From positions 1 to 20,980 of IMG/VR virus record IMGVR_UViG_3300028548_000510: 20,980 bases of DNA. One strand, given 5' to 3'. The notes beneath the pieces were generated by a model, which was not told the DNA's origin, searched no databases, and saw nothing but the letters and a program-made list of their open reading frames with translations. The DNA is from a virus. The position numbers and the translations under genes were made by a program. Positions 646-20,340 of this stretch are shown here, piece after piece (the first letter of the stretch is position 1; each line of letters starts with the position of its first letter).

Positions 646-890
646 CACTATACACTTGCAAATGTGGTAACACTAGAGAGCTAGCGAAAGTAACCATAGT
701 ACATAGGGACGGTAATTGGGAAGCAAAGGAAGCAGAATGCGAGTGTGGGTTGTACATGGATAGCGTGCCAACAGAAGGAATACCAACTTTACAGAGAACA
801 GAACCTAGCCTAAGCAAGAATAGAGAAAACTTATGGAAAGGATTTAAAGAAAAAGCTACAGGTACAAGAGGCATCAATGAGGACTTTTAA
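642..890 (+). CDS. Small zinc-ribbon-like protein, function unknown
   Basis: This 82-aa protein has two CxC knuckles, CKCG at residues 6-9 and CECG near residues 33-36. They are spaced as in a single zinc ribbon, so it probably binds one Zn ion. The C-terminal half is charged and has no recognisable domain. It starts at an ATGA overlap with the upstream methyltransferase stop, implying translational coupling and a shared transcript. A possible role is a small nucleic-acid-binding or accessory protein of the modification/packaging cluster. That role is inferred from the zinc knuckles and position only. Confidence 0.7.
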   Translation: MTLYTCKCGNTRELAKVTIVHRDGNWEAKEAECECGLYMDSVPTEGIPTLQRTEPSLSKNRENLWKGFKEKATGTRGINEDF

Positions 891-917
891 ATAAATTACA
901 TTAATTTCTATTATATA
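886..917 (+). promoter_or_regulatory. Putative phage promoter P1 (TTTAAA - 17 nt - TCTATTATATA)
   Basis: TTTAAA at 886-891 is followed after 17 nt by TATTAT (909-914) inside TTTCTATTATATA (905-917). The ATG of the ParB/methyltransferase gene is at 920. The 18-mer ending in that ATG is identical to the one ending in the ATG at 3708. The TATTAT box matches the sigma70-type -10 box at five of six positions and does not fit the Bacteroidota TAnnTTTG box. A start about 7 nt downstream would fall on the ATG. Confidence 0.55.
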
Positions 918-919
918 CT

Positions 920-2062
920 ATGAAACAACAAGTTAAGATCAGTAAAGTAAAGGGAAACCCAAGCAACCCTAGAATAATTAAGAATGATAAGTTTAAAAAG
1001 CTAGTAAAGTCAATACAAGAATTTCCTGAAATGTTAAAGCTAAGACCTATTGTAGTTGATGAGGACATGATGGTACTAGGTGGCAATATGAGATTAAAGG
1101 CAAGTAAAGAAGCAGGACTATCAGAAGTATGGATAGACATAGCTGAAGGACTTACAGAAGAACAGAAGAAAGAGTTTATAGTTAAAGACAATGTAGGGTT
1201 TGGAGAATGGGAATGGGATATACTAGCAAACGAATGGGATAGCGTACAACTGGCTGAATGGGGTTTAGATGTATGGGAAAACCTAGATGATGCAGAACCT
1301 GAATCAGGACTTATTGATGATCATGAAATACCTGAAGTAACTGAAAGCATAGTTAAGCGTGGGGATATTTGGCAACTAGGAGAGCATAGGATAATGTGTG
1401 GAGATAGTACAAGCTCAGATGATGTAGAGAAACTAATGAATGGAGAAAAAGCTGATATGGTATTTACAGACCCTCCTTATGGAGTTGACTATATTGGTGG
1501 AAGTAAAAAAAGAGATGGATTAAGAGGAGATGAAAAAGAAACTACTATATATGAAGATGTAATTCCTATTATATCAGATATTTCAAATGGTCCTTGTTAT
1601 GTATGGTATGCAGATAAAAACCCTAACGGACTTTATAGTGCTGTAAAAAAATATGGAGAAATACATTCAGTTATTATATGGAATAAAAATAACAGCACCT
1701 TTAATATGAATATACATTATAAGGCGAAACACGAACCTTGTTTATATTGGAAACCAAAAAACAAAACTTTAAAATGGATAGGAAATAATAAAGAAGAAAC
1801 TGTTTGGAATGTAGATAGAGAAAGCTCTAATAAATTACACCCTACACAAAAACCAATACAACTTGCATTAAGAGCAATAGGAAACCATAAAGCAAATATT
1901 GTAGCTGATTTATTTTTAGGAAGTGGCTCAACACTAATAGCAGCAGAAAAACTAAATAGAAAATGTTACGGAATGGAGTTAGATGAAAAGTATTGTGATG
2001 TAATAATAGAAAGATGGGAACAATTTACAGGTAAAAAAGCAATTAAAAATGGAACAGAATAG
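920..2062 (+). CDS. ParB-like / DNA methyltransferase fusion
   Basis: This 380-aa protein has two parts. Residues 1 to about 110 are a ParB/sulfiredoxin-like domain: NPR near 16-18, RPIVVDED near 42-49, and GGNMRLKA (54-61) in place of the ParB GxRR-type motif. Residues about 145-375 form a beta-class amino-methyltransferase: catalytic DPPYG at 184-188, HPTQKP at 307-312, and the AdoMet loop FLGSGST at 332-338. The fusion is a common phage architecture in which the ParB-like part may bind DNA or hydrolyse nucleotide. The catalytic motifs are intact, so activity is expected. It lies directly upstream of the terminase genes and overlaps the small terminase by 14 nt, so methylation may be coordinated with packaging (inference). 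Putative promoter P1 abuts its ATG. Confidence 0.92.
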   Translation: MKQQVKISKVKGNPSNPRIIKNDKFKKLVKSIQEFPEMLKLRPIVVDEDMMVLGGNMRLKASKEAGLSEVWIDIAEGLTEEQKKEFIVKDNVGFGEWEWDILANEWDSVQLAEWGLDVWENLDDAEPESGLIDDHEIPEVTESIVKRGDIWQLGEHRIMCGDSTSSDDVEKLMNGEKADMVFTDPPYGVDYIGGSKKRDGLRGDEKETTIYEDVIPIISDISNGPCYVWYADKNPNGLYSAVKKYGEIHSVIIWNKNNSTFNMNIHYKAKHEPCLYWKPKNKTLKWIGNNKEETVWNVDRESSNKLHPTQKPIQLALRAIGNHKANIVADLFLGSGSTLIAAEKLNRKCYGMELDEKYCDVIIERWEQFTGKKAIKNGTE

Positions 2063-2402
2063 AACAAAAATAGCAAAGGAACAAATGTTAAAAGCACTAG
2101 AGGGAAGTCTAGGGATAGTTACAACAGCTTTAAAGTCTTGCGACCTTTCAAGAACTAACTACTATAAGTGGCTAAAAGAGGATGAGGTCTTTGCTCAAGC
2201 AGTAAATGATGTAGAGTTAATAGCTAAAGACTTTGTAATGTCTAAATTCTATGAATGTATAAAAGACAAAGTGCCTTCAGTTGTAATACACGGAGCTAAA
2301 AACATTTGTGGAATGAATGAAACTAATAGAGTAGATTTAACTTCAGGCGATAAAGCTCTTAACCTTCCTTTAATTACATTCATTGACACTGATACTGAGT
2401 AA
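2049..2402 (+). CDS. Terminase small subunit (putative)
   Basis: This 117-aa protein has an N-terminal helix-turn-helix-like region (roughly residues 10-45, including ALEGSLGIVTTALKSC and RTNYYKWL). It resembles phBC6A51-type small terminases, which recognise phage DNA and deliver it to the motor. The rest is helical, with an NxxxxVDLTSGD-like stretch near the C-terminus that is typical of these proteins in phages of this kind. It overlaps the methyltransferase by 14 nt and the large subunit by about 20 nt, and sits directly before an unmistakable large terminase. The sequence match is moderate, but the context makes the assignment likely. Confidence 0.8.
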   Translation: MEQNRTKIAKEQMLKALEGSLGIVTTALKSCDLSRTNYYKWLKEDEVFAQAVNDVELIAKDFVMSKFYECIKDKVPSVVIHGAKNICGMNETNRVDLTSGDKALNLPLITFIDTDTE

Positions 2403-3591
2403 GAAATACAATCCTTTATTTGACTCAAAGGCTAGATACTTTATTATAACAGGAGGTAGGGGTTCAGGAAAGTCTTTTGCAGTTACAGTCTTTCTTACAC
2501 TCTTAACAATGTCAAGGGGTATAAGGGTTTTATTTACAAGGTTTACAATGACTTCAGCTCACTTGTCAATCATTCCTGAGTTCTTAGAAAAGATAGGATT
2601 ACTTGGATTTGATGAAACCTTTAATATCAATAAGTCAGAAGTAGTTAATGCTAAGAACCAATCAGACATTCTTTTTAGAGGTATTAAGACATCAGCAGGT
2701 AACCAAACTGCAAGCCTAAAATCTTTACAAGGTGTGAGCACGTGGGTACTTGATGAAGCTGAGGAACTTGTAGATGAAAATATATTCGATACTATTGATT
2801 TAAGTATAAGAGAAAAAAATATACAAAATAGAGTAATCTTAATTTTAAACCCAACAACTAAAGAGCATTGGATATACAAAAGGTTTTTTGAGGACAAAGG
2901 AGTAGAAGGTGGTTTTAATGGCGTTAAAGACAATGTATGCTATATACATAGTACATACTTAGATAATGAAGTTAATCTATCTGAGAGCTTCCTAGACCGC
3001 ATCAAGAGTATAAAGCATAATAACTTTAAAAAGTATCAACATAAGATTCTTGGAGGGTGGTTAGCGAAAGCTGAAGGAGTAGTCTTTGAGAATTGGAGCA
3101 TAGGAGAATTTAATCCTGATAACTTACAGACTTCTTGTGGCATGGATTTCGGATTTAGTGTGGATCCTGACTCACTTACTGAAGTAGCTATTGATAAGAA
3201 ACATAGAAAAATATACTTAAAGGAGCACATCTATCGGAATGGTTTAAAGTCCCATGAACTAGCTAGGATAGTGTTAGATAAGGTAGGGGATAAACTTATA
3301 ATAGCAGACTCAGCAGAACCTAGACTTATAGAAGATTTAAGACACCAAGGAGTAAACATTAAAGCTGTAAAGAAAGGGACTATTGAAAGTGGTATTACTA
3401 GGATGCAAGATTATGAATTGATAGTAACCCCTGAGTCAACTAACATAGCTAAGGAGCTAAATAATTATATATATTCAGATAAAAGCTCAAAGCTATATGT
3501 AGATAATTATAACCATGCTATTGATGGTATTCGTTATAATGTGATATACCACTTAGATAATCCAAATGCAGGTAAATATTATGTTCAATAA
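2383..3591 (+). CDS. terL: Terminase large subunit (PBSX-like)
   Basis: This is the ATP-driven DNA packaging motor and headful or site nuclease. In the 402-aa protein the ATPase has Walker A GGRGSGKS (24-31), Walker B VLDEAEE (122-128) and a coupling-motif region LNPTTKEHW (155-163). The RNase H-like nuclease has acidic residues in MDFGFSVDPDS (Asp255), IIADSAEP (Asp309) and NHAIDGIRY (Asp381). There is no ATG before Walker A. The frame opens after a TAA at 2371, and the first plausible start is TTG at 2383, with CTG at 2389 or 2395 as alternatives. It therefore begins inside the small-terminase gene and is probably translated by coupling. A terminator follows within 3 nt of the stop. Confidence 0.97.
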   Translation: MTLILSKKYNPLFDSKARYFIITGGRGSGKSFAVTVFLTLLTMSRGIRVLFTRFTMTSAHLSIIPEFLEKIGLLGFDETFNINKSEVVNAKNQSDILFRGIKTSAGNQTASLKSLQGVSTWVLDEAEELVDENIFDTIDLSIREKNIQNRVILILNPTTKEHWIYKRFFEDKGVEGGFNGVKDNVCYIHSTYLDNEVNLSESFLDRIKSIKHNNFKKYQHKILGGWLAKAEGVVFENWSIGEFNPDNLQTSCGMDFGFSVDPDSLTEVAIDKKHRKIYLKEHIYRNGLKSHELARIVLDKVGDKLIIADSAEPRLIEDLRHQGVNIKAVKKGTIESGITRMQDYELIVTPESTNIAKELNNYIYSDKSSKLYVDNYNHAIDGIRYNVIYHLDNPNAGKYYVQ

Positions 3592-3593
3592 AA

Positions 3594-3632
3594 AAAAGGA
3601 GCTACCAAATCTCACAATTAGTAACTCCTTTT
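3594..3632 (+). terminator. Intrinsic terminator after terL
   Basis: AAAAGGAG (3594-3601) pairs with CTCCTTTT (3625-3632), extended inward past one C.A mismatch by TAC (3603-3605) with GTA (3621-3623). The loop is 15 nt. The A-tract/U-tract arms make it a plausible terminator closing the methyltransferase/terminase unit before promoter P2. Confidence 0.75.
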
Positions 3633-3672
3633 CAAAACAGAAAACAGATAAGAAGATTGCAAACATACACCT

Positions 3673-3705
3673 TTTAAACTAAATAACAACTTTTTCTATT
3701 ATATA
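3673..3705 (+). promoter_or_regulatory. Putative phage promoter P2 (TTTAAA - 18 nt - TCTATTATATA)
   Basis: TTTAAA (3673-3678) is followed after 18 nt by TATTAT (3697-3702) within TTTCTATTATATA (3693-3705). The ATG of the next gene is at 3708, and the 18 nt ending in that ATG are identical to those at P1. It lies between a terminator and the first gene of the long tail operon, as expected for a promoter. Confidence 0.6.
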
Positions 3706-3707
3706 CT

Positions 3708-4349
3708 ATGCAAGTAAACATTGAGCAGGATGGTAAAAAAAATAAATTCAATCTAATTAATAATTGGGATGATGTTTCTTTAGAAACCTATGCTAAATTA
3801 ATTGACTACAAGAAGGGTAGTAAAACATCAGATGCTATTCATATACTACAAGTAATGACTGATGTACCTGATAAGTTCTTGAAAACTTTAGAACTACAAG
3901 ATGCTTTAACTTTACTAGCTAAAATAGCTGTAATACAAAATGATGAGGACTCGCAGTTAAAAGAAAGATTTACAATAAATGATGTCACTTACGCATTCCA
4001 TCCTAAATTAGATAATATTACTTTAGGAGAATATGCAGACATAGAACATTTTATTGAGTTAGGGTTTCACGAACACCTGCCTGAAATTATGGCGGTACTA
4101 TTCAGACCGATAACAAAACAAAGTGCTGAAGGATATACTATTGAAGCGTATGATGGGGAGATAGAAGAAAGGACAAAGATATTTAAAGATATGAAAGCTG
4201 AACAGGTGCAAAGTGCATTGGTTTTTTTTTGGAGTTTAGGCAGCGAACTATTACTAATTTTGAAATCGTTTTCAATACAGGAACATCTGAAAGTGAGTCT
4301 AAAGGATTTGATGGAGATTTTGCCGATAAATGGGGATGGTTCGGAGTAA
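3708..4349 (+). CDS. Putative tail assembly chaperone, short (G-like) form
   Basis: This 213-aa protein is probably a tail assembly chaperone or related early tail-morphogenesis factor. It is acidic, predicted mostly helical and cytoplasmic, with no membrane segment or signal peptide. Recognisable stretches are NNWDDVSLETYAKL (residues 18-31), LDNITLGEYADIEHFIELG, and LPEIMAVLFRPI in the middle. They resemble proteins found between terminase and tail genes in Bacteroidota phages. The assignment rests mainly on the T9 run at 4222-4230, which makes a perfect in-frame slippery heptamer (4223-4229), and on a -1 frame open for a further 85 codons. That is the G/GT arrangement of tail chaperones. 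It is not adjacent to the tape-measure gene (11188), unlike the usual order. Promoter P2 abuts its ATG. Confidence 0.65.
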   Translation: MQVNIEQDGKKNKFNLINNWDDVSLETYAKLIDYKKGSKTSDAIHILQVMTDVPDKFLKTLELQDALTLLAKIAVIQNDEDSQLKERFTINDVTYAFHPKLDNITLGEYADIEHFIELGFHEHLPEIMAVLFRPITKQSAEGYTIEAYDGEIEERTKIFKDMKAEQVQSALVFFWSLGSELLLILKSFSIQEHLKVSLKDLMEILPINGDGSE

Positions 4350-4486
4350 TGTATAGGCTCACAGATGGGAAAATTCACGACCTAGAAAGGATTACAAAGC
4401 TAAGTCTTTTGGAGTGCCTTACTTGGTTAAGTTATGAAACAGATTTACAAGAAACAAATAAGGTTCAATTAGACAATAAACAATAA
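3708..4486 (+). CDS. Putative tail assembly chaperone, -1 frameshifted long (GT-like) form
   Basis: If ribosomes, or the polymerase, slip at the U-UUU-UUU heptamer (4223-4229), translation passes to the -1 frame and continues to the TAA at 4484-4486. This gives a 259-aa product: 174 shared residues plus 85 new ones. The new segment contains FADKWGWFGVMYRLTDGK and then KLSLLECLTWLSYE, which looks like a real compact helical domain. The -1 frame is closed by TGA at 4199-4201 and has no ATG before 4349, so the WGW part cannot be reached from an ATG. TTG at 4229, or a separate 45-aa gene from ATG 4349 (TAATG coupled), are the alternatives. In lambda-like phages the T part binds the tape measure. 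Confidence 0.55.
4223..4229 (+). other. Programmed -1 frameshift / slippage site (T TTT TTT)
   Basis: Nine consecutive T (4222-4230) contain T TTT TTT in the zero frame, read as Val-Phe-Phe-Trp. A -1 slip keeps full codon-anticodon pairing on both tRNAs. The run is also long enough for transcriptional slippage, and one extra U would give the same frame. No clear stimulatory pseudoknot was seen just downstream. Confidence 0.6.
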
Positions 4487-5035
4487 ATGGTAAACAATAA
4501 AACATACAACAACACTGTAAATACTCTTTTACGAATAGGGGAATACCATGAGCAAATACATAGTACCTCAGTTGGAGATATTTGGAAGGTTAACATAGAA
4601 AAAATGCAAAAGTTTCCTTTAATGCATATAAACCCTGCTGATGTTCAAGCAGGACAGGGAAGCCTTATATATAACTTTCAAATTTTTATCATGGACTTAG
4701 TAGTAGAAAGGGAAGATTGGACTATGAATAATAAAAAAGCAGACTTTAACAAACTTGTAAAAGATCTTAGTAACGAACAAGATGTATTCAATGAAACACT
4801 ACAAATAGCAACAGACTTCATTAGTATGCTAAGACATAGTAAACAGCAGTCATTAGAAGGGGTTAATAATATAAATGATGCAATCTATTTTACAGATGGA
4901 GATTTTACATTACAACCTTTTCAGGAACGATTTGATAATCTACTTTGTGGGTGGGTGTTTAGTGTTGGGATAGAAGTTACAAATACCTTTGAAGCATGCA
5001 CAATACCTGTTACTAATTTAGGAGCAGGGTATTAA
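4487..5035 (+). CDS. Putative tail terminator / tail completion protein
   Basis: This 182-aa protein resembles small mixed alpha/beta proteins encoded early in tail modules of Bacteroidota phages. Seen in the sequence are a basic N-terminus and KFPLMHINPADVQAG (near residues 42-56). These are followed by a hydrophobic beta-like stretch FQIFIMDLV, NEQDVFNETLQIATDFISML, and QPFQERFDNLLCGWVFSVGIEV near the C-terminus. The pattern of an alternating strand/helix fold ending in ERFxNxxxGW suggests a terminator or completion protein capping the tail tube, but I cannot confirm the fold. The ATG directly follows the stop of the preceding frame, and the stop overlaps a micro-ORF as TAATG. Confidence 0.55.
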   Translation: MVNNKTYNNTVNTLLRIGEYHEQIHSTSVGDIWKVNIEKMQKFPLMHINPADVQAGQGSLIYNFQIFIMDLVVEREDWTMNNKKADFNKLVKDLSNEQDVFNETLQIATDFISMLRHSKQQSLEGVNNINDAIYFTDGDFTLQPFQERFDNLLCGWVFSVGIEVTNTFEACTIPVTNLGAGY

Positions 5036-5106
5036 TGAAGTTTAAAATAGGTAGGTGGGCAATAGAGATAGGATGGAAAAAGTTTAAAATAACAATTAAT
5101 TTATAA
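5035..5106 (+). CDS. Micro-ORF, 23 aa, basic peptide
   Basis: A 23-codon frame begins at an ATG overlapping the previous stop (TAATG at 5033-5037) and ends at TAA 5104-5106, 9 nt before the next gene. The peptide, MKFKIGRWAIEIGWKKFKI plus four residues, is basic with alternating hydrophobic and charged positions. The coupled start is the main argument for translation. It could equally be a fortuitous spacer. Confidence 0.3.
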   Translation: MKFKIGRWAIEIGWKKFKITINL

Positions 5107-5115
5107 AAAAATAAC

Positions 5116-5565
5116 ATGGCAAATTTAGTAACAACAATTACCGAGTCGGTAGTTTTAAATGGAGCCCTCAGAGGTTCAAGTAACACTGTAACAACAGCAG
5201 GAATAAATGATGTTATGGAAAGAATATTAGTGTGTACTGCAGCACAGAAAACTACAATTGCAGTATTTGCTGCAAATGCTTATACAACTGCAGGGGCTAT
5301 CAAAGTAGCTGATGTAAGATATGTTAGAGTAACAAACTTAGATGAAACAAATGATATTCAATTAGCAGTAACTACAGCAACTACTAATTTTGAGATTTTA
5401 ATTTCAGCAGGTAACTCTTATGTAATGTCTGTATCTTTATTATCTGTTAAAGGAGCAACAGGAGTGCCTACATTTGGAGCAGGTGGAACTTTAACAAGTT
5501 TAATAGTACAGCCAACACATGCTACAGCAGATGCTTCAGTAGAGCTATTTGTAGGATTAGCATAA
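5116..5565 (+). CDS. Small beta-rich structural protein, function unknown
   Basis: This 149-aa protein is rich in Thr, Ala and Val, with alternating hydrophobic strands, and has no Cys-based or catalytic motif. It looks like an immunoglobulin-like or jelly-roll virion protein. The opening ITESVVLNGALRGSSNTVTTAGINDV is followed by VRYVRVTNLDETNDIQLAV and a C-terminal series of short strands. Similar small proteins accompany tail genes in marine Bacteroidota phages, where they may be decoration or tail-surface proteins (inference). The start has an A-rich leader (AAAAAAATAAC before ATG) and the stop overlaps the next ATG by 1 nt (TAATG). Confidence 0.6.
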   Translation: MANLVTTITESVVLNGALRGSSNTVTTAGINDVMERILVCTAAQKTTIAVFAANAYTTAGAIKVADVRYVRVTNLDETNDIQLAVTTATTNFEILISAGNSYVMSVSLLSVKGATGVPTFGAGGTLTSLIVQPTHATADASVELFVGLA

Positions 5566-6149
5566 TGGATTACCCTTCACTTGAAAAATATCTAAATTCT
5601 TTTGGGAAGCAGGTTGTAAATAAAGCAAAAGGTATTCTCCAAAGAACAGGGAAAGGTGGGGGTAATTTAGAGAAATCTATACGCTTTAAAGTTACAGATA
5701 GTGGAGATGGTAAAACTCAGGACATAAGTTTCTACATGGAAAGCTATGGGAAGTATGTAGATGCAGGGGTATCAGGAGCAGGTGGAGTAATAAAATCAGG
5801 TGATCATAAAGGGAGCTATTCAGGACAGCAGACTTTTAAAAACTACAAGGATGCTGTAGTACCTACTCCTTTTAGGTATGGTAGTGGGTTGGGGAAAAGG
5901 AATGGTATTTATAAAGGAATAGGCTCATTTATAAAGAAGAAGGGTATGCAGCCGAGAAATGAAAAAGGTCAGTATCAAACTACAGTAGGGTTAAAAATAG
6001 CAATAGTAAAAGTCCTGTGGACAAAAGGTATAAAAGGTGTAGAGTTTTTTCAGAAACCTATAAGTTTAGGACTTAAAGAATTTAAAGATAAATTACTTAC
6101 AGAAATCAAAGAGGACATCATAGAAGAAATAAGAAAACAAATAAAATAA
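5565..6149 (+). CDS. HK97 gp10-like / minor tail protein (putative)
   Basis: This 194-aa basic protein starts with a helical segment (EKYLNSFGKQVVNKAKGIL). A Gly-rich loop, LQRTGKGGGNLEKSIRF, is followed by strand-like FYMESYGKYVDAGVSG. That Tyr-Gly-x-Tyr-Val-Asp-x-Gly pattern is typical of gp10-like neck/tail-completion proteins. The C-terminus is a long charged helix. It would act at the head-tail junction or tail end during assembly. It overlaps the upstream gene by 1 nt and ends 4 nt before the next start. The family match is moderate and the exact role is inferred. Confidence 0.55.
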   Translation: MDYPSLEKYLNSFGKQVVNKAKGILQRTGKGGGNLEKSIRFKVTDSGDGKTQDISFYMESYGKYVDAGVSGAGGVIKSGDHKGSYSGQQTFKNYKDAVVPTPFRYGSGLGKRNGIYKGIGSFIKKKGMQPRNEKGQYQTTVGLKIAIVKVLWTKGIKGVEFFQKPISLGLKEFKDKLLTEIKEDIIEEIRKQIK

Positions 6150-6153
6150 AACA

Positions 6154-7608
6154 ATGGCAACAACTATAATACAGAAACCTCTCTACCCAACACTTCCTGT
6201 AGGGCAACCTGTAATTTTTACAGTAGAAAATAATGGAATAGTTTATGGGCAGGAGCAGGTTAAGTTTACGGCAGAAGTTCATATCAGTGATACCATTACA
6301 CCTGATTTAACCTCTACCACACATATAGTAGGAACATTTAAAACTACACCTAATAATGCAGGTTCAGGTATTTTTGATTTAAGCTCTGTTATAGAAAATT
6401 ATGTAAGTGCTGACAATGTACCAATAAATGAAAGCCTGTGTACTTATAAGACTCTTGCACTAAATAAATTCCCTTCATTGCCTATCCACTTAATAGATAA
6501 GTATTCAGGAAATAAAAATACTGCAAGATGGTTGGCAATAAAATTTAAGGTTGAATACTTAGATTTGGATGTTACAAGTAATACTTATAATCAAATTATA
6601 AGTGTAGAAGAAATAAATACGCAAGAATATATTGTATTCAATGGATACTTAAAGGAAGATGATGAGCTAGAAGAAGCATTATATACCAATAACTTTGGAT
6701 ATAATTTACAAGACTTTTATTTTATAGAAAACAAAGAAAGAAAGTTTTTAAGTAATGCTCCGCTCATTCAGTATGCTAACATAGATGATTATGGAACCGT
6801 GGCATTAGATATGAGAAACCCCATAACAAAAGGATTCACAAACCCTTTAACAGCAGGAAGCTCAGGAGTTAGAATTAAGTATTACGACCATGATGGTTCT
6901 GCTATAGGTTCTGAAGTAGTAACTCATAATGTTTCAAATGGAGGTTTTAGTTATGCAAATGCTAATATATATTCAAGGATTTTATATTTAGGCATTTTCC
7001 CTGCAAATCTTAAGGGGTGGAGTACAATGTTTCAGGGGTATGTAACAGCAGGAACTGTTGCAAGTTATACATTGGCAGTTGTTACAGGTGGATTAGTGAA
7101 CATGTCATCAACTTATCAGATTAAAATAAACTGCCCTACTTTAAAAGGTTACAAGCCTATCAGACTTACTTGGTTGAATCAATGGGGGGCGTGGGATTAC
7201 TATACATTTACTATGAAATCTTCAAAATCCCTTACAACAAAGAAAACAAAATACCAACAGTTAGCAGGAACATGGAATGAATCAACATATAAGATAAACG
7301 GTTACAAAGGGGGTAATAAAACCTTTAGGGTAAATGCAACAGAAGTAATTAAAATGAATACAGACTTTGTAAATGAAGATGAATCAGCATGGTTTGAAGA
7401 ATTAATTAACAGCCCTGAAGTATATTTATTAGAAGGATTTCAAGATGACAAAGTAAGTACATCTACAACATCTGCTTTAAATAAATATGTAACTCCTGTA
7501 ATGTTAAAGACATCACAATGGACAAAAAAAACAAAGGCAAATGATAAGCTAATACAATACACATTTGAAGTTGAAAAAAGTAAGACACTTAGAACACAGT
7601 CAATATAA
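6154..7608 (+). CDS. Distal tail / baseplate-like protein (putative)
   Basis: This 484-aa beta-rich protein has no signal peptide or membrane segment. The N-terminal third starts PTLPVGQPVIFTVENN, which reads like an Ig-like strand repeat. A central region carries GFTNPLTAGSSGVRIKYYD. A distinctive stretch near residue 350, RLTWLNQWGAWDYYTFTMKS, is shared by tail proteins of Bacteroidota phages, and the C-terminal part (SPEVYLLEG to the end) resembles the galectin-like or ring-forming part of Dit-type proteins. It lies directly before the hub-like 904-aa gene and overlaps it by 1 nt, as dit precedes tal. An A-rich leader precedes the ATG. Tail location is well supported, but the specific Dit role is inference. 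Confidence 0.6.
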   Translation: MATTIIQKPLYPTLPVGQPVIFTVENNGIVYGQEQVKFTAEVHISDTITPDLTSTTHIVGTFKTTPNNAGSGIFDLSSVIENYVSADNVPINESLCTYKTLALNKFPSLPIHLIDKYSGNKNTARWLAIKFKVEYLDLDVTSNTYNQIISVEEINTQEYIVFNGYLKEDDELEEALYTNNFGYNLQDFYFIENKERKFLSNAPLIQYANIDDYGTVALDMRNPITKGFTNPLTAGSSGVRIKYYDHDGSAIGSEVVTHNVSNGGFSYANANIYSRILYLGIFPANLKGWSTMFQGYVTAGTVASYTLAVVTGGLVNMSSTYQIKINCPTLKGYKPIRLTWLNQWGAWDYYTFTMKSSKSLTTKKTKYQQLAGTWNESTYKINGYKGGNKTFRVNATEVIKMNTDFVNEDESAWFEELINSPEVYLLEGFQDDKVSTSTTSALNKYVTPVMLKTSQWTKKTKANDKLIQYTFEVEKSKTLRTQSI

Positions 7609-10322: not shown

Positions 10323-11176
10323 TGTCAAAATATGATACAATACAATACATAAAAGGTTTTAGCGTAAGACCTTCAACAATTTCAGGGCTTGGAATTGTAA
10401 CATTTGATGATGGGGTTAATTTAATAACACCTAATCAGCTACAATGTGAAGCATACGGTTACACGTACAACAAAGCAGATGGTACATGTTCGGTGTTTAA
10501 TTATAGCACAAATCTAATAAGTAATTTTAGTAATGAGAACAACAAAACTTTTGGTTCAGGAAACTCTACACAAACAGGGACAAATAATACCTTAATAATG
10601 GGTGAAAATAATATTGTTAGGGGTTTCTCTAGGAATAGTATTATAACAGGTAACAAGAATGAAATAGCCAATGGAGTAAACAATGCAAATGTATCAGGGG
10701 TTTTGGGGGAGTCAACAGCAGACAACTCTATAGTATTAGGAGGTAATGCTTTTGATGATGCTTTAGGAGAACGACAGTCAATAACTTTAATGTATGGAAC
10801 AGCCACTACAGGAAGTAGCACAGTAGATTCATATTTAAATAACACAACAGATAGTTATTTTACAATACCTACAGATACAATAGTTATTTTTGAAACACAA
10901 ACAGTAGCAGTTAGAACAGGAGGAACAGGAGGAGGTGCAAGGGGGGACTACAAAGCATGGTCGGAAGTAGGAGTAGCAATTAACAAATCAGGAGTATTAA
11001 GTATTGACAGTTCAAGAGATACAATATCAAGTTCAGGTAGTGTTTCAGGGTGGGTTCCAACAGTAGGAGTTTCAGGAATAAAATTCTTACAACAAGTAAA
11101 GGGTGCAAATAATAGGGATATAATGTGGGCTACTACGATTAGACTTACACAAATTAAAACAGGAGTTGGACTTTAA
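10322..11176 (+). CDS. Tail fibre / receptor-binding protein with YadA-head-like repeats
   Basis: The N-terminal part of this 284-aa protein (1 to about 60), with ITPNQLQCEAYGYTYNKADGTC, matches the attachment domain of Bacteroidota-phage fibres. Residues about 68-140 are a run of short Asn/Gly-centred repeats (GSGNSTQTGTNNTLIMGENN, RNSIITGNKNEI, DNSIVLGGNAF), spaced about 14 residues. This is the pattern of the left-handed beta-roll of trimeric adhesin heads. The C-terminal part (150-284) is a beta-rich domain with FTIPTDTIVIFETQTVAVR and a Gly-rich turn, similar to C-terminal domains of phage fibres/spikes. The protein is probably trimeric and binds the host surface. It sits between the hub and tape-measure genes. 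Confidence 0.72.
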   Translation: MSKYDTIQYIKGFSVRPSTISGLGIVTFDDGVNLITPNQLQCEAYGYTYNKADGTCSVFNYSTNLISNFSNENNKTFGSGNSTQTGTNNTLIMGENNIVRGFSRNSIITGNKNEIANGVNNANVSGVLGESTADNSIVLGGNAFDDALGERQSITLMYGTATTGSSTVDSYLNNTTDSYFTIPTDTIVIFETQTVAVRTGGTGGGARGDYKAWSEVGVAINKSGVLSIDSSRDTISSSGSVSGWVPTVGVSGIKFLQQVKGANNRDIMWATTIRLTQIKTGVGL

Positions 11177-11187
11177 AATAAAATAAA

Positions 11188-13425
11188 ATGGCAGAGGAAC
11201 TATATTTCAAAATAAATTCAGATGTATCAAGTGCTGTAAAAGGAACTAAAAGTTATGTGAACACTTTGGAAATGGCAGAAGGTAATGTTAAGGAATTAAA
11301 CGAGGGTATAAAAGCTCAGAACGAACTGATACTTATACAAGAGCAAGAGCTATTAAAACTTGAAGAAGCTCAAAGCAAGATAGGTAAAAATGCTTGGAAT
11401 GCAGGAGCTATAAAAAGGAAAGAAGATATACGGGAAAATACATTTGCGTTAAAACAAAATAGGCTTGGGTTAAAAGAATTAAAACAGGAACAAAAAAGTG
11501 CAACTTCACAAGTAAAGTCATTTAAAAAGGAACAAAAAGAAACATCAATAGGCTTAATAACAAATATTAAGAACTTTAAAGTAATGGGCTTTTCTATAAA
11601 TGGATTGTCTAAGTCTTTTAAAGGTATAATACCTGCAATTAGATTAATGTTTACCTCAATAAAAGTAGGGATTGCAAGCACAGGGATTGGATTATTAGTA
11701 GTGGCATTGGGTGGTTTAGTAGCATGGTTTACACAAACCAAAGCAGGTTCTGAAGGGTTAAGTAAAGCTCTTATATCAACAGGGGCAGCAGTACAAGTAT
11801 TTATTGACAGATATATTTCTTACTCGAAAATGATTTTCAATATTTTAACGTTGGATTGGGATGGCATTAGTAAAAATGGAAGTGAAGCGTTCAAGGGTTT
11901 AGGAGATGAGTTAGAAAGAGAGATAAAATTAGCAGGAGAATTAGCTGAAGCAACGAATACACTAACAGATAAGACACGAACTTTAAATGTAGAAACAGCA
12001 CAAAGGAGGGCAGACATACAAGACCTGACAGAAAAATCTCAGGATTTAAATTTAACAGAGTCTGAAAGGTTAGCAGCACTAGAACAGGCAGGGGCTATTG
12101 AAAAGGATTTAATGGCTAGGAGGGTGGACAATGCAGAGGAAGCACTTAGAATACAGGTTGCACAAATGACTATGTCTGATAACATGGCAGCAGATTTGGA
12201 TAAATTAGCAGATCTTGAAATTAACTTAGCAAATATAAGAAGGGAGTCATCTAAAACCTCAACAACACTTCTAAGGAAATCAAACGCAATACGAAAATCA
12301 GTAGCTGCAGAAGAAACTAGGAGGCAAAATGCATGGATAAGAAAACAGAATACAATCACGAGAGCTAATATAAAGTTAAAGGAAGAAGCAAACGAAATTT
12401 TATTCCAATTATCTTTAAGGAAAGAAATTAACGAGTCAACAGTAGAAAAAAGGATTTTAAGAAGGGCTAATGATGTAAAAAAGGAAATACTTGAAAAGAG
12501 TAAACTAGATGCAGATGATAAACGTAAAGCACTAAAAGCATTAAATGACCTGTTACTTTCAGATGAGTTAGCAATCACAGATAAATATGATGCGATAAAG
12601 AAAGCTAGAAGTAAAAAACTCACAAAAGAAATAAATGATTTAAACAATGAGAACTATTTACTGACTATTACAAAAGAAAGAACAAGATTAGACAAAGAAC
12701 TAGCAGCTGAAGGAGCAGCAGAAATAAAGGCTCTTGATTTAAGGAAGTTAAGTTTAGAAGCAAAGGGAAAATTATCGCATGAAATACAAGAAAAATATAA
12801 AAAATTAAGACAAATAAATAAAGATGAGGAAGCTGCTGAAGATAAGCAGAGAGCAGATGAATTAGCAGCTTATAAGACAGAATTACTTGAGCAAGGGTTA
12901 GGAGTTGTAATGCAAGGTATTAAAATACAAGAACAAGCACTTACAAAGAGTTATAAAAAGGATATGAAATTAGCTGAGGCTAATGGTAAAAGTACAGAGA
13001 AAATAGAAAAGGATTATCAGGCTAAAATGGTAGCTAATGCAAAAAAACAAAAAGCAATGAAAATAGGCTTAGCAATAGTAGATACATATCAATCAGCTGT
13101 AGCAGCTTATAATAATGCCTTGGCTATACCGGTAGTAGGAACAGCTATGGCTCCAATAGCAGCGGGGTTGGCAGTAGCAGCAGGATTAGCGAATGTAGCT
13201 ATGATACAAGGTACAGATGTAGGTGGTGGAGGTGGAGGTGGTGGTGGTGGAAGTGTAGGGGGTGGTGCTCCTGATGCAGCACCTCCTGCTCCTCAAATGA
13301 TGTCAGGCTCATTCGATATTAGTGGAGGGGTAGAACCTGAACCTTTGAAAGCATTTGTTGTAACTGATGAGATGACTTCAAGTCAAGACCAACTTGCAAA
13401 CATTAGAAGAAGGGCAACAATATAA
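11188..13425 (+). CDS. Tail tape measure protein
   Basis: This 745-aa protein sets tail length and helps DNA entry. It has a coiled-coil N-terminus (30-120, with EQELLKLEEAQ and similar heptads) and a hydrophobic, potentially membrane-inserting segment VGIASTGIGLLVVALGGLVAW at about 160-180. A long charged helical region follows (240-600). Next comes an Ala/Gly hydrophobic stretch (about 628-675, including YQSAVAAYNNALAIPVVGT and IAAGLAVAAGLANVAMI), typical of tape measures. Ten glycines (679-688) and a Pro/Ala linker lead to the conserved-looking C-terminus with AFVVTDEMTSSQDQLANIRRR. At about 0.15 nm per residue the tail would be roughly 110 nm. It lies downstream of the tip and fibre genes, an unusual order. 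The leader is A-rich with no Shine-Dalgarno sequence. Confidence 0.92.
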   Translation: MAEELYFKINSDVSSAVKGTKSYVNTLEMAEGNVKELNEGIKAQNELILIQEQELLKLEEAQSKIGKNAWNAGAIKRKEDIRENTFALKQNRLGLKELKQEQKSATSQVKSFKKEQKETSIGLITNIKNFKVMGFSINGLSKSFKGIIPAIRLMFTSIKVGIASTGIGLLVVALGGLVAWFTQTKAGSEGLSKALISTGAAVQVFIDRYISYSKMIFNILTLDWDGISKNGSEAFKGLGDELEREIKLAGELAEATNTLTDKTRTLNVETAQRRADIQDLTEKSQDLNLTESERLAALEQAGAIEKDLMARRVDNAEEALRIQVAQMTMSDNMAADLDKLADLEINLANIRRESSKTSTTLLRKSNAIRKSVAAEETRRQNAWIRKQNTITRANIKLKEEANEILFQLSLRKEINESTVEKRILRRANDVKKEILEKSKLDADDKRKALKALNDLLLSDELAITDKYDAIKKARSKKLTKEINDLNNENYLLTITKERTRLDKELAAEGAAEIKALDLRKLSLEAKGKLSHEIQEKYKKLRQINKDEEAAEDKQRADELAAYKTELLEQGLGVVMQGIKIQEQALTKSYKKDMKLAEANGKSTEKIEKDYQAKMVANAKKQKAMKIGLAIVDTYQSAVAAYNNALAIPVVGTAMAPIAAGLAVAAGLANVAMIQGTDVGGGGGGGGGGSVGGGAPDAAPPAPQMMSGSFDISGGVEPEPLKAFVVTDEMTSSQDQLANIRRRATI

Positions 13426-13456
13426 ATCAAATAAACCAACTTAATTTCTATTATAT
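13426..13456 (+). promoter_or_regulatory. Putative phage promoter P3 (ATCAAA - 17 nt - TCTATTATAT)
   Basis: ATCAAA (13426-13431) lies exactly 17 nt upstream of TATTAT (13449-13454). The 16-mer TTAATTTCTATTATAT (13441-13456) is identical to the one at P1. It is followed by TAAAAAGA, also found at P4. The ATG of the protease gene is at 13471, so the predicted mRNA has a leader of about 10 nt. It would start a head-gene transcript after the tape-measure gene. Confidence 0.55.
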
Positions 13457-13470
13457 TAAAAAGACTTTAT

Positions 13471-14187
13471 ATGCCTTGCGAACAATGTGAAAACGGAAAA
13501 TTTAAATGGGGGAAAACAGGAAGCTGTGAATATAACTCTATAGCTGAATGTGAAGAAGATAACAAAGACTATTATAATGATATGAAACCAACTAAAATTG
13601 TAGAGCTAATTATCAATGATGAAAATGAATCTCTTGCTATTGATTGTATTTCTTTAGTATCAGAACCTGCCATAGAAGAAAATCTAATTTTTATGAGTAA
13701 GGCAAAAAATAATTTAACCTTAGCTAAAATAGATACTGAGAAAAGGGAAATCATTTCTCCTGCATTAATCCCTGATAAGAATATATACAGGGTAGATGAA
13801 AATGGAGATGATTATTACGTTTACTTCAGTAAAGATACAGTAAAGAATTGTGCTTATAGTTTCTTAAAGAATAACAACCATCATAAAGCAACCTATCAGC
13901 ATAAGGAAAGAGTTTCAGGAGTTTTAACAGTTGAGTCTTGGATTATAGAAAACCCTAAGATGGATAAGGCAAACCTTTATGGATTTGAATTAAAAAAAGG
14001 GACTTGGATGGTTAAGATGAAAATTGAAAATGATGAGCTTTGGGAAAAAGTAAAGAAAGGAGATATTAAAGGATTAAGCATAGAAGGCTACTTCACTTCA
14101 AAATATCAGGAGATGCAAAAAGCAAAACCAACTAATGAAGAAGTGTTAAAAGCATTGAACGAAATAATCACAAAATCAAACAAATAA
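13471..14187 (+). CDS. XkdF-like prohead protease (putative serine protease)
   Basis: This protease would cleave scaffold and capsid precursors during head maturation. In the 238-aa protein, residues 3-30 are a Cys-rich cap (MPCEQCENGKFKWGKTGSCE, then AECEEDN; Cys 3, 6, 19, 27) seen in Bacteroidota-phage proteases. Residues about 42-210 are an XkdF-like domain: SLVSEPAIEENLIFM, SPALIPDKNIYRVDENGDDY, YYVYFSKDTV, TYQH (His144), VESWIIE (Ser156), KGTWMVKMKI and IKGLSIEGYF (Ser203). His144 with Ser156 or Ser203 are candidate catalytic residues, and I cannot decide between the serines. It lies immediately before the scaffold and capsid genes, as expected for a prohead protease. It has its own putative promoter, P3. 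Confidence 0.85.
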   Translation: MPCEQCENGKFKWGKTGSCEYNSIAECEEDNKDYYNDMKPTKIVELIINDENESLAIDCISLVSEPAIEENLIFMSKAKNNLTLAKIDTEKREIISPALIPDKNIYRVDENGDDYYVYFSKDTVKNCAYSFLKNNNHHKATYQHKERVSGVLTVESWIIENPKMDKANLYGFELKKGTWMVKMKIENDELWEKVKKGDIKGLSIEGYFTSKYQEMQKAKPTNEEVLKALNEIITKSNK

Positions 14188-14205
14188 CTAACTAATCTAT
14201 TATAT
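14175..14205 (+). promoter_or_regulatory. Putative phage promoter P4 (ATCAAA - 17 nt - TCTATTATAT)
   Basis: AATCAAA (14174-14180) and TCTATTATATTAAAAA (14196-14211) are separated by the same 15 nt as in P3. The spacer from ATCAAA to TATTAT is 17 nt. The ATCAAA box overlaps the 3' end of the protease gene (AAA-TCA-AAC codons). The scaffold ATG is at 14219, giving a predicted leader of about 9 nt. This would give the scaffold/capsid pair its own start. Confidence 0.55.
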
Positions 14206-14218
14206 TAAAAAAGAAACT

Positions 14219-14932
14219 ATGGACATTAAAGAACAAATATTAGTAGCACTAGGACTTGACAAAGGTACTGCTGTGAAATTAGAATGGCAAGCAAAGTCAG
14301 ATGATGGAACTATTTTCGTTTCAACAGCAGAAGAATTAGCTGAAGGGGTGGATGTAAGCGTTCTTACTGAAGATGGAACGACAATTCTATTACCAATCGG
14401 GACATATACTACTGATACAGGGGTAACTTTCAGAGTTGAAGAAGAAGGTATCGTTGCTGAAGTTTTAGAAACTGAAACTGAAGAAGAAGTAGAAGAAGAA
14501 GGAGCTCCTATGGAAGAAGATTTAGCTGAAGAAGCTGATGTAGCCGATTGGAAAGGGATGGAAAAAAGGATTCAAAACTTAGAGGATGCTGTAGCAGATC
14601 TAAAATCAGAATTAGCATCTGATGGTAAGGAAGAAAAAGATTGCCCTAATGGATATGATGATGATGGAAACTGTATTGAGGAAGAAGAATTATCTACACC
14701 TTCAGTAAACCCTAAAAGCATTAAGACAACTGAAGTAGTAGAGTTTGCAGTAGATACTACAGTAGAAGATTTAAAAGCTGAAAATGAATTGTTAAAAGCT
14801 GAGCTTAATGCAAAGCCATCTTCAGCACCTTTAGACACTAACAAGTTCAGTTCTGAAAGAGCAGAACCAACACAACAAGATTTCAGAAGAATGACAAAGC
14901 AAGAAAAATTCTTATATAACTTACATAAATAA
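14219..14932 (+). CDS. Head scaffolding protein (putative)
   Basis: This 237-aa, very acidic protein directly precedes the major capsid protein. An N-terminal beta-rich part includes TILLPIGTYTTDTGVTFRVE, a pattern found in scaffold-like proteins of related phages. An acidic stretch (near 82-107, EVLETETEEEVEEEG and similar) is followed by predicted coiled coil (MEKRIQNLEDAVADLKSEL, about 114-132, and VEDLKAENELLKAELN, about 182-197) and a basic C-terminus (QQDFRRMTKQEKFLYNLHK) that could contact the capsid protein. A small CPNGYDDDGNC motif sits in the middle. Acidic coiled-coil composition, basic tail and position support a scaffold processed by the upstream protease. Family identity was not recognised. 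Confidence 0.7.
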   Translation: MDIKEQILVALGLDKGTAVKLEWQAKSDDGTIFVSTAEELAEGVDVSVLTEDGTTILLPIGTYTTDTGVTFRVEEEGIVAEVLETETEEEVEEEGAPMEEDLAEEADVADWKGMEKRIQNLEDAVADLKSELASDGKEEKDCPNGYDDDGNCIEEEELSTPSVNPKSIKTTEVVEFAVDTTVEDLKAENELLKAELNAKPSSAPLDTNKFSSERAEPTQQDFRRMTKQEKFLYNLHK

Positions 14933-14954
14933 AATAACTTAAAAAACAAAAAAA

Positions 14955-15863
14955 ATGGCGTTAACTACAACATCAAACTTTGCAGGAAAAGCAGCAGGAT
15001 TTTACATCTCAGCTGCGTTAAAAGCATCAAACTCGTTAGACTACCTAACACTGATAGAAAATATCAAATTTAAAAGTAATATCCAAGCTTTAAATCAAAC
15101 TGTTGATACAGTTACGAATGCAGGATGTGATTTCGTATCAGTCGGAACATTAGCGTTAACTGAAAAGATATTAGAACCAAAAAACCTTCAAGTTAATCTT
15201 GACCTTTGCAAATCTACACTTCTTGACTCATGGGAAGCGTTACAAATGAGAGCAGGAGCAGGAGCACCACCACCTGCATCTTTTGATGACTATGTAATTT
15301 CTTACATGGGGGAAATCATTGCTGAAGCAACTGAAAATTCAATTTGGGATGGAACTGATGTGGCAGGGAAATTCAATGGCTTCAATGGAGCTGTAACAGG
15401 ATTATTATTACCGGGTGTAGATGCTACTGTAGTACAAGATGCTGCAACAGGGGCATATACTGCTGCAAACATTATAGCTAACTTAGAAGCTGCAGTTGCG
15501 GCTATTCCTGCTGCAGTATTAGGAAAAGAAGATTTACATATTTACATGAACCAAAAAACTTACCAATTATATATTGCTGCAGTATCTACTTTAGGATATG
15601 TTAATGCTTACAATATGAATGGGGATTACATACCTATGTTTAATGGGTACAAGATTGCAGTATGTAACGGAATGACTGCAAATGAAGTTGTAATAGCTCA
15701 AAAATCTAATTTGTTCTTTGGAACTGACTTGGTTTCAGATGCTACAAAAATTACTTTGATGGACATGGCTTCTTTGGATGGATCAGACAATATGAGATTA
15801 GTTGCTAGATACTCTGCAGGAGTTCAGTCAGGAACAGGAGCTGATATTGTAAGACAATCATAA
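14955..15863 (+). CDS. Major capsid protein (HK97-fold, putative)
   Basis: This 302-aa protein would form the icosahedral shell. Seen are a small Ala-rich N-terminus, a long middle region with FDDYVISYMGEIIAEATENSIWDG (helix/strand of a capsid P-domain), LHIYMNQKTYQLYIAA and YIPMFNGYKIAVCNGM. A C-terminal LVARYSAGVQSGT resembles the last strands of HK97-like capsid proteins. Codon choice, an A-rich leader (AAAAAACAAAAAAA before ATG) and a strong stem-loop directly after the gene fit high expression. It follows protease and scaffold with no gene between. It contains few Cys or Trp residues and has no signal peptide. The N-terminus is short, so processing may be limited to the scaffold. Confidence 0.85.
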   Translation: MALTTTSNFAGKAAGFYISAALKASNSLDYLTLIENIKFKSNIQALNQTVDTVTNAGCDFVSVGTLALTEKILEPKNLQVNLDLCKSTLLDSWEALQMRAGAGAPPPASFDDYVISYMGEIIAEATENSIWDGTDVAGKFNGFNGAVTGLLLPGVDATVVQDAATGAYTAANIIANLEAAVAAIPAAVLGKEDLHIYMNQKTYQLYIAAVSTLGYVNAYNMNGDYIPMFNGYKIAVCNGMTANEVVIAQKSNLFFGTDLVSDATKITLMDMASLDGSDNMRLVARYSAGVQSGTGADIVRQS

Positions 15864-15870
15864 TAAAAAC

Positions 15871-15902
15871 AAAGAGGGGAGGTGTAAAAACTTCCCCACT
15901 TT
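15871..15902 (+). terminator. Stem-loop terminator after the major capsid gene
   Basis: GGGGAGG (15876-15882) pairs with CTTCCCC (15891-15897) with one G.U pair and an 8-nt loop. Beyond an A.A mismatch, AAAG (15871-15874) pairs with CTTT (15899-15902). The downstream tract is only moderately U-rich (ATAACTTTT), so read-through is likely and could set the ratio of capsid to downstream products. The 11-mer AAAGAGGGGAG recurs at 16558. Confidence 0.7.
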
Positions 15903-15926
15903 ATAACTTTTAAAACATAAAATATC

Positions 15927-16529
15927 ATGGCATGTACGGCATTAACAAAAGGTAGAGGACTAGACTGTAACCGAGTTTCAGGTGGAGTAAAATACGTTTA
16001 TTTCGCAGTCTTTGACCAAGTATTATCAACAACAGCAGGAACAGGAGCTGATGCAGGGAGTATTACAGAGATAAGTATGGCAACAGCACCTTCAGCAGCA
16101 TCTTTATACCGATATACAGTCCCTAGAGGATCTACAACAGCAAATGAAGCTATTACAGGATCGACTGAAAACGGAACAATTTTTTACACTCCAACTGTTT
16201 CAATGGTTTTAAATAAATTAACTAAGGAAGATCAAAACGAAATTCGTTTATTAGGACAAACTCAGGTAATGGTATTCTGTCAAATGAATGCACAGATTGC
16301 AGGTACAGGAACTGATACAATTATTTGTATGGGGAGACAAAATGCAATGTCAATGAATGCAGGAACTGCTGATACCGGAGCTGCTTTTGGAGATAGAAAT
16401 GGTTACACACTTACATTCGACGGTTTGGAAGCTGAACCTTTCTTGATGGTAAAAGATTACCCAATTGCAACAGGACCTTTCTCTGATGCAGGTTTAGGTG
16501 GAATTGCAATTCCAATTATAGCAGTATAA
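15927..16529 (+). CDS. Putative major tail tube (or capsid-associated) protein
   Basis: The N-terminus of this 200-aa protein, MACTALTKGRGLDCNRVSGGVKYVYFAVFDQV, is characteristic of a structural protein found after the capsid gene in Bacteroidota phages. The central KLTKEDQNEIRLLGQTQVMVFCQMN and C-terminal RNGYTLTFDGLEAEPFLMVKDY read as the strands and loop of a tube-like beta-sandwich. I favour tail tube because of the last motif and abundant-protein features (own flanking terminators), but a head decoration or completion protein is possible, especially as it lies in the head module. No TCTATTATAT element precedes it, so it is probably read from upstream through the 15871 stem-loop. Confidence 0.5.
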   Translation: MACTALTKGRGLDCNRVSGGVKYVYFAVFDQVLSTTAGTGADAGSITEISMATAPSAASLYRYTVPRGSTTANEAITGSTENGTIFYTPTVSMVLNKLTKEDQNEIRLLGQTQVMVFCQMNAQIAGTGTDTIICMGRQNAMSMNAGTADTGAAFGDRNGYTLTFDGLEAEPFLMVKDYPIATGPFSDAGLGGIAIPIIAV

Positions 16530-16557
16530 TCACACTTGTAGTTTTAAATATATTCTT

Positions 16558-16590
16558 AAAGAGGGGAGTCAAATGACTTCCCTTTTTTTT
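16558..16590 (+). terminator. Strong intrinsic terminator before the 16628 gene
   Basis: GGGGAGTC (16563-16570) pairs with GACTTCCC (16575-16582), with one G.U pair and a 4-nt loop AAAT, followed by eight T (16583-16590). A-rich bases upstream (16558-16562) can extend the stem into the T-tract. It is the best terminator in the window and sits just before promoter P5. Confidence 0.88.
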
Positions 16591-16592
16591 AT

Positions 16593-16624
16593 ACCAAACA
16601 AAAACGGAACTTTTCTATTATATA
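16593..16624 (+). promoter_or_regulatory. Putative phage promoter P5 (ACCAAA - 17 nt - TCTATTATATA)
   Basis: ACCAAA (16593-16598) lies 17 nt upstream of TATTAT (16616-16621) within TTTCTATTATATA (16612-16624). It starts 2 nt after the T-tract of the terminator and the next ATG is at 16628, so the predicted start again falls on the ATG. Terminator-promoter juxtaposition is the same as at P2. Confidence 0.6.
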
Positions 16625-16627
16625 GTA

Positions 16628-17104
16628 ATGATACAAGCAATAACAGAAACTAACTTTACAGCGAATTTATCTACAGAAGATAACCGTATAGATACTTCAG
16701 TAGGGACAGACAAAATAAGATTTTTAATAAAATTTATTAATGACATGGATGGCTCTGTTTCATATTGCTACCCTACTATCACAATTAAAAATAGATATAC
16801 CTCTATGCTTTTTACTTATAATTTAGCACCTGATATGTTTGTTAATCAAGTTAAAATGTTACCATCAGGAAGTTGGAAGTATGAGGTATATGAAGTTTCA
16901 TGGATAGGTTCAGTAGTAGTTGCATTAGGAACAGCACCATCTACAGAAATAGAAGTTTTACCTGTATTAAATGATAATGGAGTAGTACAGGGAATTGTAA
17001 CAAAAGGTAAATTAAACCTTTCAGACAAATCAGGAACAGGGCAGGTTCAATATACTCAACACCCTGAACCTGAAGAAACGAACACTATATACTACGGACA
17101 ATAA
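16628..17104 (+). CDS. Structural protein of unknown function
   Basis: This 158-aa protein has alternating strands and no catalytic motif. The N-terminal part (TETNFTANLSTEDNRIDTSV) leads to KIRFLIKFINDMDGSVSYCYPTI, then MLPSGSWKYEVYEVSW and a C-terminal tail ending KSGTGQVQYTQHPEPEETN. The fold is probably a beta-sandwich like small virion adaptor or decoration proteins. Position between the tube-like and portal genes suggests a head or connector component. It is the first gene of a unit beginning at P5 and ends 9 nt before the portal gene. I do not recognise a named family. Confidence 0.55.
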   Translation: MIQAITETNFTANLSTEDNRIDTSVGTDKIRFLIKFINDMDGSVSYCYPTITIKNRYTSMLFTYNLAPDMFVNQVKMLPSGSWKYEVYEVSWIGSVVVALGTAPSTEIEVLPVLNDNGVVQGIVTKGKLNLSDKSGTGQVQYTQHPEPEETNTIYYGQ

Positions 17105-18973: not shown

Positions 18974-18975
18974 TT

Positions 18976-19494: not shown

Positions 19495-19613
19495 TGAAGA
19501 AACACTACAAACCAAAACAAATTAATATCACTAAATTAAAATCCTACTTGGATAAAAAGCCTAAAACAAATGAAAGAAGTACAAGACACAATACAGGTAG
19601 GAATAGTAAATAG
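19494..19613 (+). CDS. Basic micro-ORF, 39 aa
   Basis: A 39-codon frame begins at an ATG overlapping the connector stop (TAATG at 19492-19496) and ends at TAG 19611-19613. The peptide is strongly basic (MKKHYKPKQINITKLKSYL, then DKKPKTNERSTRHNTGRNSK), with no hydrophobic segment. It overlaps the next small ORF by 44 nt in another frame. The coupled start supports it, but I recognise no family. Confidence 0.4.
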   Translation: MKKHYKPKQINITKLKSYLDKKPKTNERSTRHNTGRNSK

Positions 19614-20328: not shown

Positions 20329-20340
20329 TTAAAAACTATG
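20324..20340 (+). promoter_or_regulatory. 7-bp inverted repeat spanning stop and start codons
   Basis: CATAGTT (20324-20330), AAA, AACTATG (20334-20340) is a perfect inverted repeat. The left arm includes the holin-like TAG stop and the right arm ends exactly in the ATG of the next gene. As RNA it would sequester that start until the ribosome on the holin gene opens it. The stem is short and AT-rich, so the effect is uncertain. Confidence 0.3.

Follow-up and report, generated by a model that had tools for sequence, protein, structure and literature searches.

A two-box element stands at the start of five late transcription units in the DNA analysed here (the window; a complete IMG/VR record of 20,980 bases), and a gene for a small sigma-like protein, whose operon carries a host-type promoter signal, lies just outside it in the same phage genome. 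We favour, with a probability of roughly 0.78, a cascade in which a host sigma factor would serve the phage sigma operon and an ECF-like phage sigma factor would then serve the late promoters. In such a scheme, the phage sigma would be expressed from a host-type promoter and redirect the host core RNA polymerase to the late elements, with its region 4 reading box 1 (AAAYRAA or AAACTAAA) and its region 2 reading box 2 (CTATTATATA). Transcription would begin about 12 nt past the C of box 2, which in the tightest copies is the A of the start codon. The five elements of the window would then be the late promoters of a tailed flavobacteriophage, and late transcription in an abundant group of marine flavobacterium viruses, most of them uncultured, appears to be turned on by a small sigma factor that they encode themselves.

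The source of the window is a tailed phage. Its large terminase (terL product) shares 64% identity with the enzyme of two cultured Nonlabens phages, P12024S and P12024L. All the main ORFs read in the + direction, and most are late-region genes, among them genes for a ParB-methyltransferase, the small and large terminase, a head protease, the capsid, the portal and others. A near-identical contig, L344, overlaps both ends of the window: its positions 1-3171 correspond to the right end (window 17828-20980, 95.9% identity) and its positions 10708-13218 to the left end (window 1-2508, 98.1% identity), so that the genome is circular or circularly permuted and about 28.5 kb long. The window represents the late three quarters of this genome, and the bridging contig supplied the missing 7.5 kb of early genes. 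The genes to which we refer below are as follows.

920..3591, +, first late unit with ParB-methyltransferase, small terminase and large terminase genes
920-2062, +, ParB-methyltransferase gene, a DNA methyltransferase fused to a ParB-like domain
start 13471, +, head protease gene (Pfam Peptidase_S78_2)
start 14955, +, capsid gene, downstream of ORF 14219
start 17114, +, portal gene (PHROG)

Close to the ParB-methyltransferase gene, at positions 1-645, there is a second, different DNA methyltransferase gene that is truncated at the window start.

Two-box elements in the window

The 10-mer TCTATTATAT occurs six times on the forward strand of the window and never on the reverse strand, compared with a mean of 0.067 and a maximum of 1 forward copies in 300 dinucleotide shuffles of the same DNA. 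Intergenic DNA makes up 2.5% of the window and holds five of the six copies (binomial P about 5e-8). These are located at 907, 3695, 13447, 14196 and 16614 (+), directly before ORFs 920, 3708, 13471, 14219 and 16628, the five genes at which a first-pass annotation of this DNA had placed the element. The same annotation had listed gene starts inside the units as lacking the element, and indeed none of them carries it. Its spacing also proved correct: in the copy at 3695 the AAA of box 1 and TATTAT are 18 nt apart, and in the other four copies 17 nt. The candidate late promoters, with distances to the start codon counted from the C of box 2, and the accompanying features are listed below.

889..917, +, putative late promoter 1: box 1 AAATAAA at 889-895, box 2 TCTATTATATA at 907-917; ParB-methyltransferase ATG at 920, 12 nt from the C; syntenic in relatives
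3676..3705, +, putative late promoter 2: box 1 AAACTAA at 3676-3682 (longer spacer class), box 2 TCTATTATATA at 3695-3705; ATG at 3708, 12 nt from the C
13429..13456, +, putative late promoter 3: box 1 AAATAAA at 13429-13435, box 2 TCTATTATAT at 13447-13456; head protease gene at 13471, 23 nt from the C
14178..14205, +, putative late promoter 4: box 1 AAACAAA at 14178-14184, overlapping the end of the upstream gene, box 2 TCTATTATAT at 14196-14205; ORF 14219, then capsid gene at 14955
16596..16624, +, putative late promoter 5: box 1 AAACAAA at 16596-16602, box 2 TCTATTATATA at 16614-16624; ORF 16628, 13 nt from the C, then portal gene at 17114
3594..3632, +, terminator-like hairpin closing the terL unit and preceding putative promoter 2 (fold -9.2 kcal/mol, z -4.55)
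16558..16590, +, terminator-like hairpin with T-run, upstream of putative promoter 5 (fold -17.8 kcal/mol, z -4.68)
20776..20785, +, chance copy of the word inside the metallophosphoesterase gene, no box 1, outside the system

The sixth exact copy, at 20776, was absent from the first-pass annotation. It was rejected as a further promoter, as it has no box 1 and is missing from the homologous gene of L344; the only copy of the word in that contig is at 11614, the equivalent of window position 907. Both hairpins, proposed earlier as terminators ahead of two of the copies, fold well (z about -4.6); they were missed by an automatic terminator scan and recovered by direct folding. A third stable hairpin (15866-15905, -16.6 kcal/mol, z -4.5) is located between the capsid gene and ORF 15927, and no promoter copy follows it. 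A scan of the window with the sigma-70 consensus was uninformative, as it gave only 66 matches vs. 85 in shuffles, although 886-914 and 3673-3702 are among the matches. The 11-mer AACAGCAGGAA was found five times in the window, the top count of any 11-mer.

The consensus is better written as AAA(C)YRAA-N11/12-TTTCTATTATATA. In a set of 99 distinct copies picked without regard to the upstream box, box 1 (AAAYRA at -19 or AAACTAA at -20 from the C of box 2) was present in 93%, while other offsets gave a mean of 1.9%. The two spacer classes differ by a single base, and the longer one, with AAACTAA at -20, is conserved in relatives at the locus of the 3695 copy. T-tracts precede the C of box 2 and TATA follows it. 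The spacer between the boxes varies in sequence; the boxes do not.

Distribution in relatives and distance to the start codon

In 80 relatives fetched by terminase, TCTATTATAT was the commonest 10-mer, with 164 forward and 11 reverse copies (the reversed word gave 4 and 26). Across nine genomes, the window among them, 42 of 45 copies were intergenic, and 400 anagrams of the word averaged 1.3 copies in all. An element as common inside genes as upstream of them, which the first-pass annotation had named as the outcome that would overturn its proposal, is thus clearly disfavoured. The near-complete 29-kb relatives carry copies at the same kinds of late-operon start (five each in G014, G028 and G035), and no full word with an upstream box was found in their replication region. 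Likewise, the early 7.5-kb segment of L344 holds no copy. The proposed scan of the whole genome and of relatives therefore placed the element at late-operon starts, in synteny throughout the clade, and not in the early region, in support of a two-box promoter of a phage regulon. The word was present in 162 of 163 loci whose terminase is at least 80% identical to that of the window and in 5 of 57 loci with 50-80% identity, which is near chance (loci not deduplicated in either count). In many relatives (L010-L035 type loci, e.g. L017 5582-5640 and L010 relatives) a palindrome, TTGATTAATCAA, occurs about 15 nt downstream of the copy before the small terminase gene; it is a possible operator.

The exact word of the window is absent from P12024S/L, the cultured phages of the sister clade. 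Late operon starts of these phages (Inhavirus) carry AAAAC-N17-CGTTAATATA, which has the same two-box layout, with a T-tract before the C, and again a sigma-like gene is found upstream of terL. The box 2 words of the two clades differ, and the sigma-like protein of P12024S/L has no BLAST similarity to that of the window clade. Of the 17 distinct copies with a start codon in the P12024S/L clade, 14 have the ATG at exactly 12 nt from the C, and none has it nearer. Among 103 distinct copies of the window clade, the distance was 12 nt in 35 and 12-14 nt in 56, and it was never less than 12 nt; the remaining copies are mostly up to 43 nt from the start codon, with one at 53. A sharp edge and a main peak at 12 nt are thus common to both clades, and they hold for only part of the copies.

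Leaderless mRNAs have a -10-like signal some 10-12 nt ahead of their start codon (PMC3160421), and part of the copies show spacing of this type. The -7 element of Flavobacterium johnsoniae has its first base at -12, and transcripts begin 4-5 nt past the end of the element (PMC6847099). Applying this ruler to the 12-nt spacing, we infer that in the commonest class the A of the start codon would be the first transcribed base. A spacing that is often exactly 12 nt and never less, in both clades, indicates that the late mRNAs of the tightest copies are probably leaderless or nearly so. Two of the five window copies are 22-23 nt from the ATG, so that not all units would be leaderless. This yields a concrete and testable prediction, namely leaderless late mRNAs in hosts whose mRNAs mostly have leaders (over 10 nt long for 87% of mRNAs of F. 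johnsoniae; PMC6847099). P12024S/L were isolated together with their host, which makes the main test feasible.

The sigma-like gene and host-type promoter signals

The first-pass annotation had suggested that polymerase specificity might be encoded by the phage and that a sigma factor should be sought in the rest of the genome. Such a gene was found in L344, and all examined relatives with enough DNA upstream of terL encode a sigma-like protein of about 180-195 aa beside the late region.

L344:8786-9343, sigma-like gene of the window's own phage, 185 aa, about 1.4 kb beyond the first base of the window

This conserved gene just outside the window supports a phage-encoded specificity; contact of the protein with the element and the position of transcription starts would follow from the proposed model. 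The family was reached via one sub-threshold Pfam Sigma70_r2 match among relatives (40 records searched). For the window-clade protein, the Pfam sigma matches are below the curated cut-offs (region 4; 18.1 vs. 24.1 bits). Pfam did not report region 2 for the protein of the window phage, and in this clade that region is visible mainly by fold. PHROG sigma-factor profiles match many family members, with E down to 2e-9. A tblastn search with the sigma-like protein against 50,697 named phage records gave no match, and a profile search of PDB sequences with the family gave nothing convincing; among comparisons with the PDB, only that of folds was informative.

An AlphaFold2 model (49 sequences, pLDDT 80) predicts two helical domains joined by a disordered linker (residues 94-118). 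Foldseek comparison of the model with the PDB returned almost only sigma factors, including full-length ECF matches, the best being the ECF factor SigL (E 5e-4), and comparison with viral predictions returned phage ECF sigma factors (best 5e-8). The region 4 domain alone reached a TM score of about 0.7 against the PDB; overall TM scores were low, as the prediction does not fix how the two domains sit relative to each other. Two helical domains with a flexible linker, about 160-200 aa in total and without regions 1.1 and 3, make up the ECF-type layout, which the 185-aa protein has. It appears to be a small ECF-like sigma factor, and under the proposed cascade it would bind core RNA polymerase and direct it to specific promoters.

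Immediately upstream of the sigma gene, and overlapping it, is a gene that carries TAnnTTTG, with its ATG 11 or 12 nt from the first T, in 182 of 191 loci (not deduplicated). The nn bases of this signal vary, and TA and TTTG are constant. The first early gene of L344 has TATATTTG-cagt-ATG and the sigma operon of P12024S/L starts with TATATTTG-acac-ATG. The late element is not a Bacteroidota -7 element of this kind, since TCTATTATATA has no TTTG; the earlier remark that the element is unlike TAnnTTTG thus holds, and the host signal is found elsewhere, at the early and sigma-gene operons. Judging by these motifs, early and sigma operons appear to be served by host-type promoters and late units by the phage-specific element.

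Co-variation, alternative readings and known systems

Sigma type and element match clade by clade. In L190, the sigma-like protein is 54% identical and the word is kept at syntenic places. P12024S gp33 is a different sigma-like protein, above the Pfam region 2 cut-off, and accompanies the different word of that clade. Other clades of the same terminase family have CGTTTATA, TGTTTATA, AGTTATAT, CGTTATAT or TATTATAT in the same register before the gene after terL; these elements, which were read by eye in the 12-nt register and in most cases at one or two sites of a genome, carry less certainty. Word counting in eight further clades gave no clear element, the 12-nt register upstream of the post-terL gene being clearer. 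Weak matches to one or both sigma profiles occur upstream of terL in many other clades, and the sigma-like protein of L214 matches both, which ties the two sigma families together. In a profile-profile comparison of the two families, only region 2 aligns (E 5e-4, probability 30). Co-occurrence within one clade is partly common descent. Whether the pattern extends to a whole flavobacteriophage lineage we consider evenly balanced: such a lineage would have fast-diverging ECF-like sigmas, each with its own late word in the same two-box layout (CTATTATATA, CGTTAATATA, CGTTTATA, AGTTATAT and others), forming mutually orthogonal pairs, with many late mRNAs starting at the start codon. Diverged sigma-promoter pairs of this kind could be orthogonal tools in flavobacteria.

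The elements might instead be read by a host sigma factor, either the primary sigma-ABfr or an alternative or ECF sigma of the host, with no phage specificity factor involved. Hosts of this phylum possess many ECF sigmas, and since no phage RNA polymerase was recognised, the host core polymerase would be needed in any case. Still, the late word has no TAnnTTTG, yet this host-type signal is conserved elsewhere in the same phages, and the element changes between phage clades along with the phage sigma, which makes this reading unlikely. We judge it decidedly unlikely that specificity comes from another phage protein, such as an activator, a polymerase-appropriating protein or an unrecognised RNA polymerase, and that the sigma-like protein has another role. 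Several conserved early genes of no known function would leave room for such a factor, as binding by the sigma is itself deduced; against this, the sigma-like gene is conserved, adjoins the late region and is of a type that follows the element type.

A translation-initiation or RNA-level signal, rather than a promoter, would agree with the nearness of start codons (within 12-14 nt of the C in just over half of the distinct copies) and with the lack of Shine-Dalgarno sites in Bacteroidota (PMC6847099). This is highly improbable, because the distance to the ATG ranges from 12 to 43 nt (one at 53) while that between the boxes is fixed, genes inside the units have no element, and two copies follow hairpins. 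A chance resemblance, or an AT-rich repeat that was duplicated recently and has no function, is already refuted by the shuffle, anagram, strand and synteny tests and by boxes that stay constant around a varying spacer, even though intergenic DNA is AT-rich and copies are free to vary outside the two boxes.

The preferred cascade from host sigma to phage ECF-like sigma to late promoters has a counterpart in phages phiEco32 and 7-11, in which a small phage (ECF) sigma uses phage-specific promoters on late structural genes and host promoters serve the upstream part of the early cluster (PMC4331800; PMC7881722). The same programme, phage-specific signals on structural genes and host-type signals on early genes beside a small phage sigma, is found here from sequence only. 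The present system differs in host phylum, in its words (TAATGTATA in phiEco32) and in sigma family. Further differences are its conserved upstream box, the 12-nt distance between the -10-like box and the start codon, and a sigma and an element that change from clade to clade. Our results would extend the strategy of phiEco32 to phages that infect Bacteroidota, a phylum with promoters unlike the textbook type. Compared with promoters of the Bacteroidota primary sigma (-33 TTTG / -7 TAnnTTTG), the start-codon register matches if the C of box 2 is set at -12 (PMC6847099). The late element differs from these promoters in having no TTTG and another upstream box.

Late promoters of the T4 type (gp55, TATAAATA) have no -35-like box and depend on a sliding-clamp co-activator. 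Both systems combine an AT-rich -10 word at late genes with a small phage protein of the sigma family; the upstream box, which is found here in 93% of copies, sets the present element apart from the T4 type. In the literature searched, to which the 2012 genome paper of P12024S/L did not belong, we found no published description of these promoters. These findings make it possible to read from DNA how an abundant group of uncultured marine phages would programme its transcription: host-type promoters are predicted for the early and sigma operons, and promoters of the phage sigma for five late units.

Two contigs of this phage group, L189 and L190, are binned in the MAGs Euryarchaeota archaeon SP3063 and Pseudooceanicola sp. 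SP158; these assignments are most likely binning errors rather than hosts. The record OQ791282.1 ("Shigella phage Henu10") gives the same terminase match as Riemerella phage PT15 (45.9%, coordinates 18324-19583), and the name or host given for it may be wrong.
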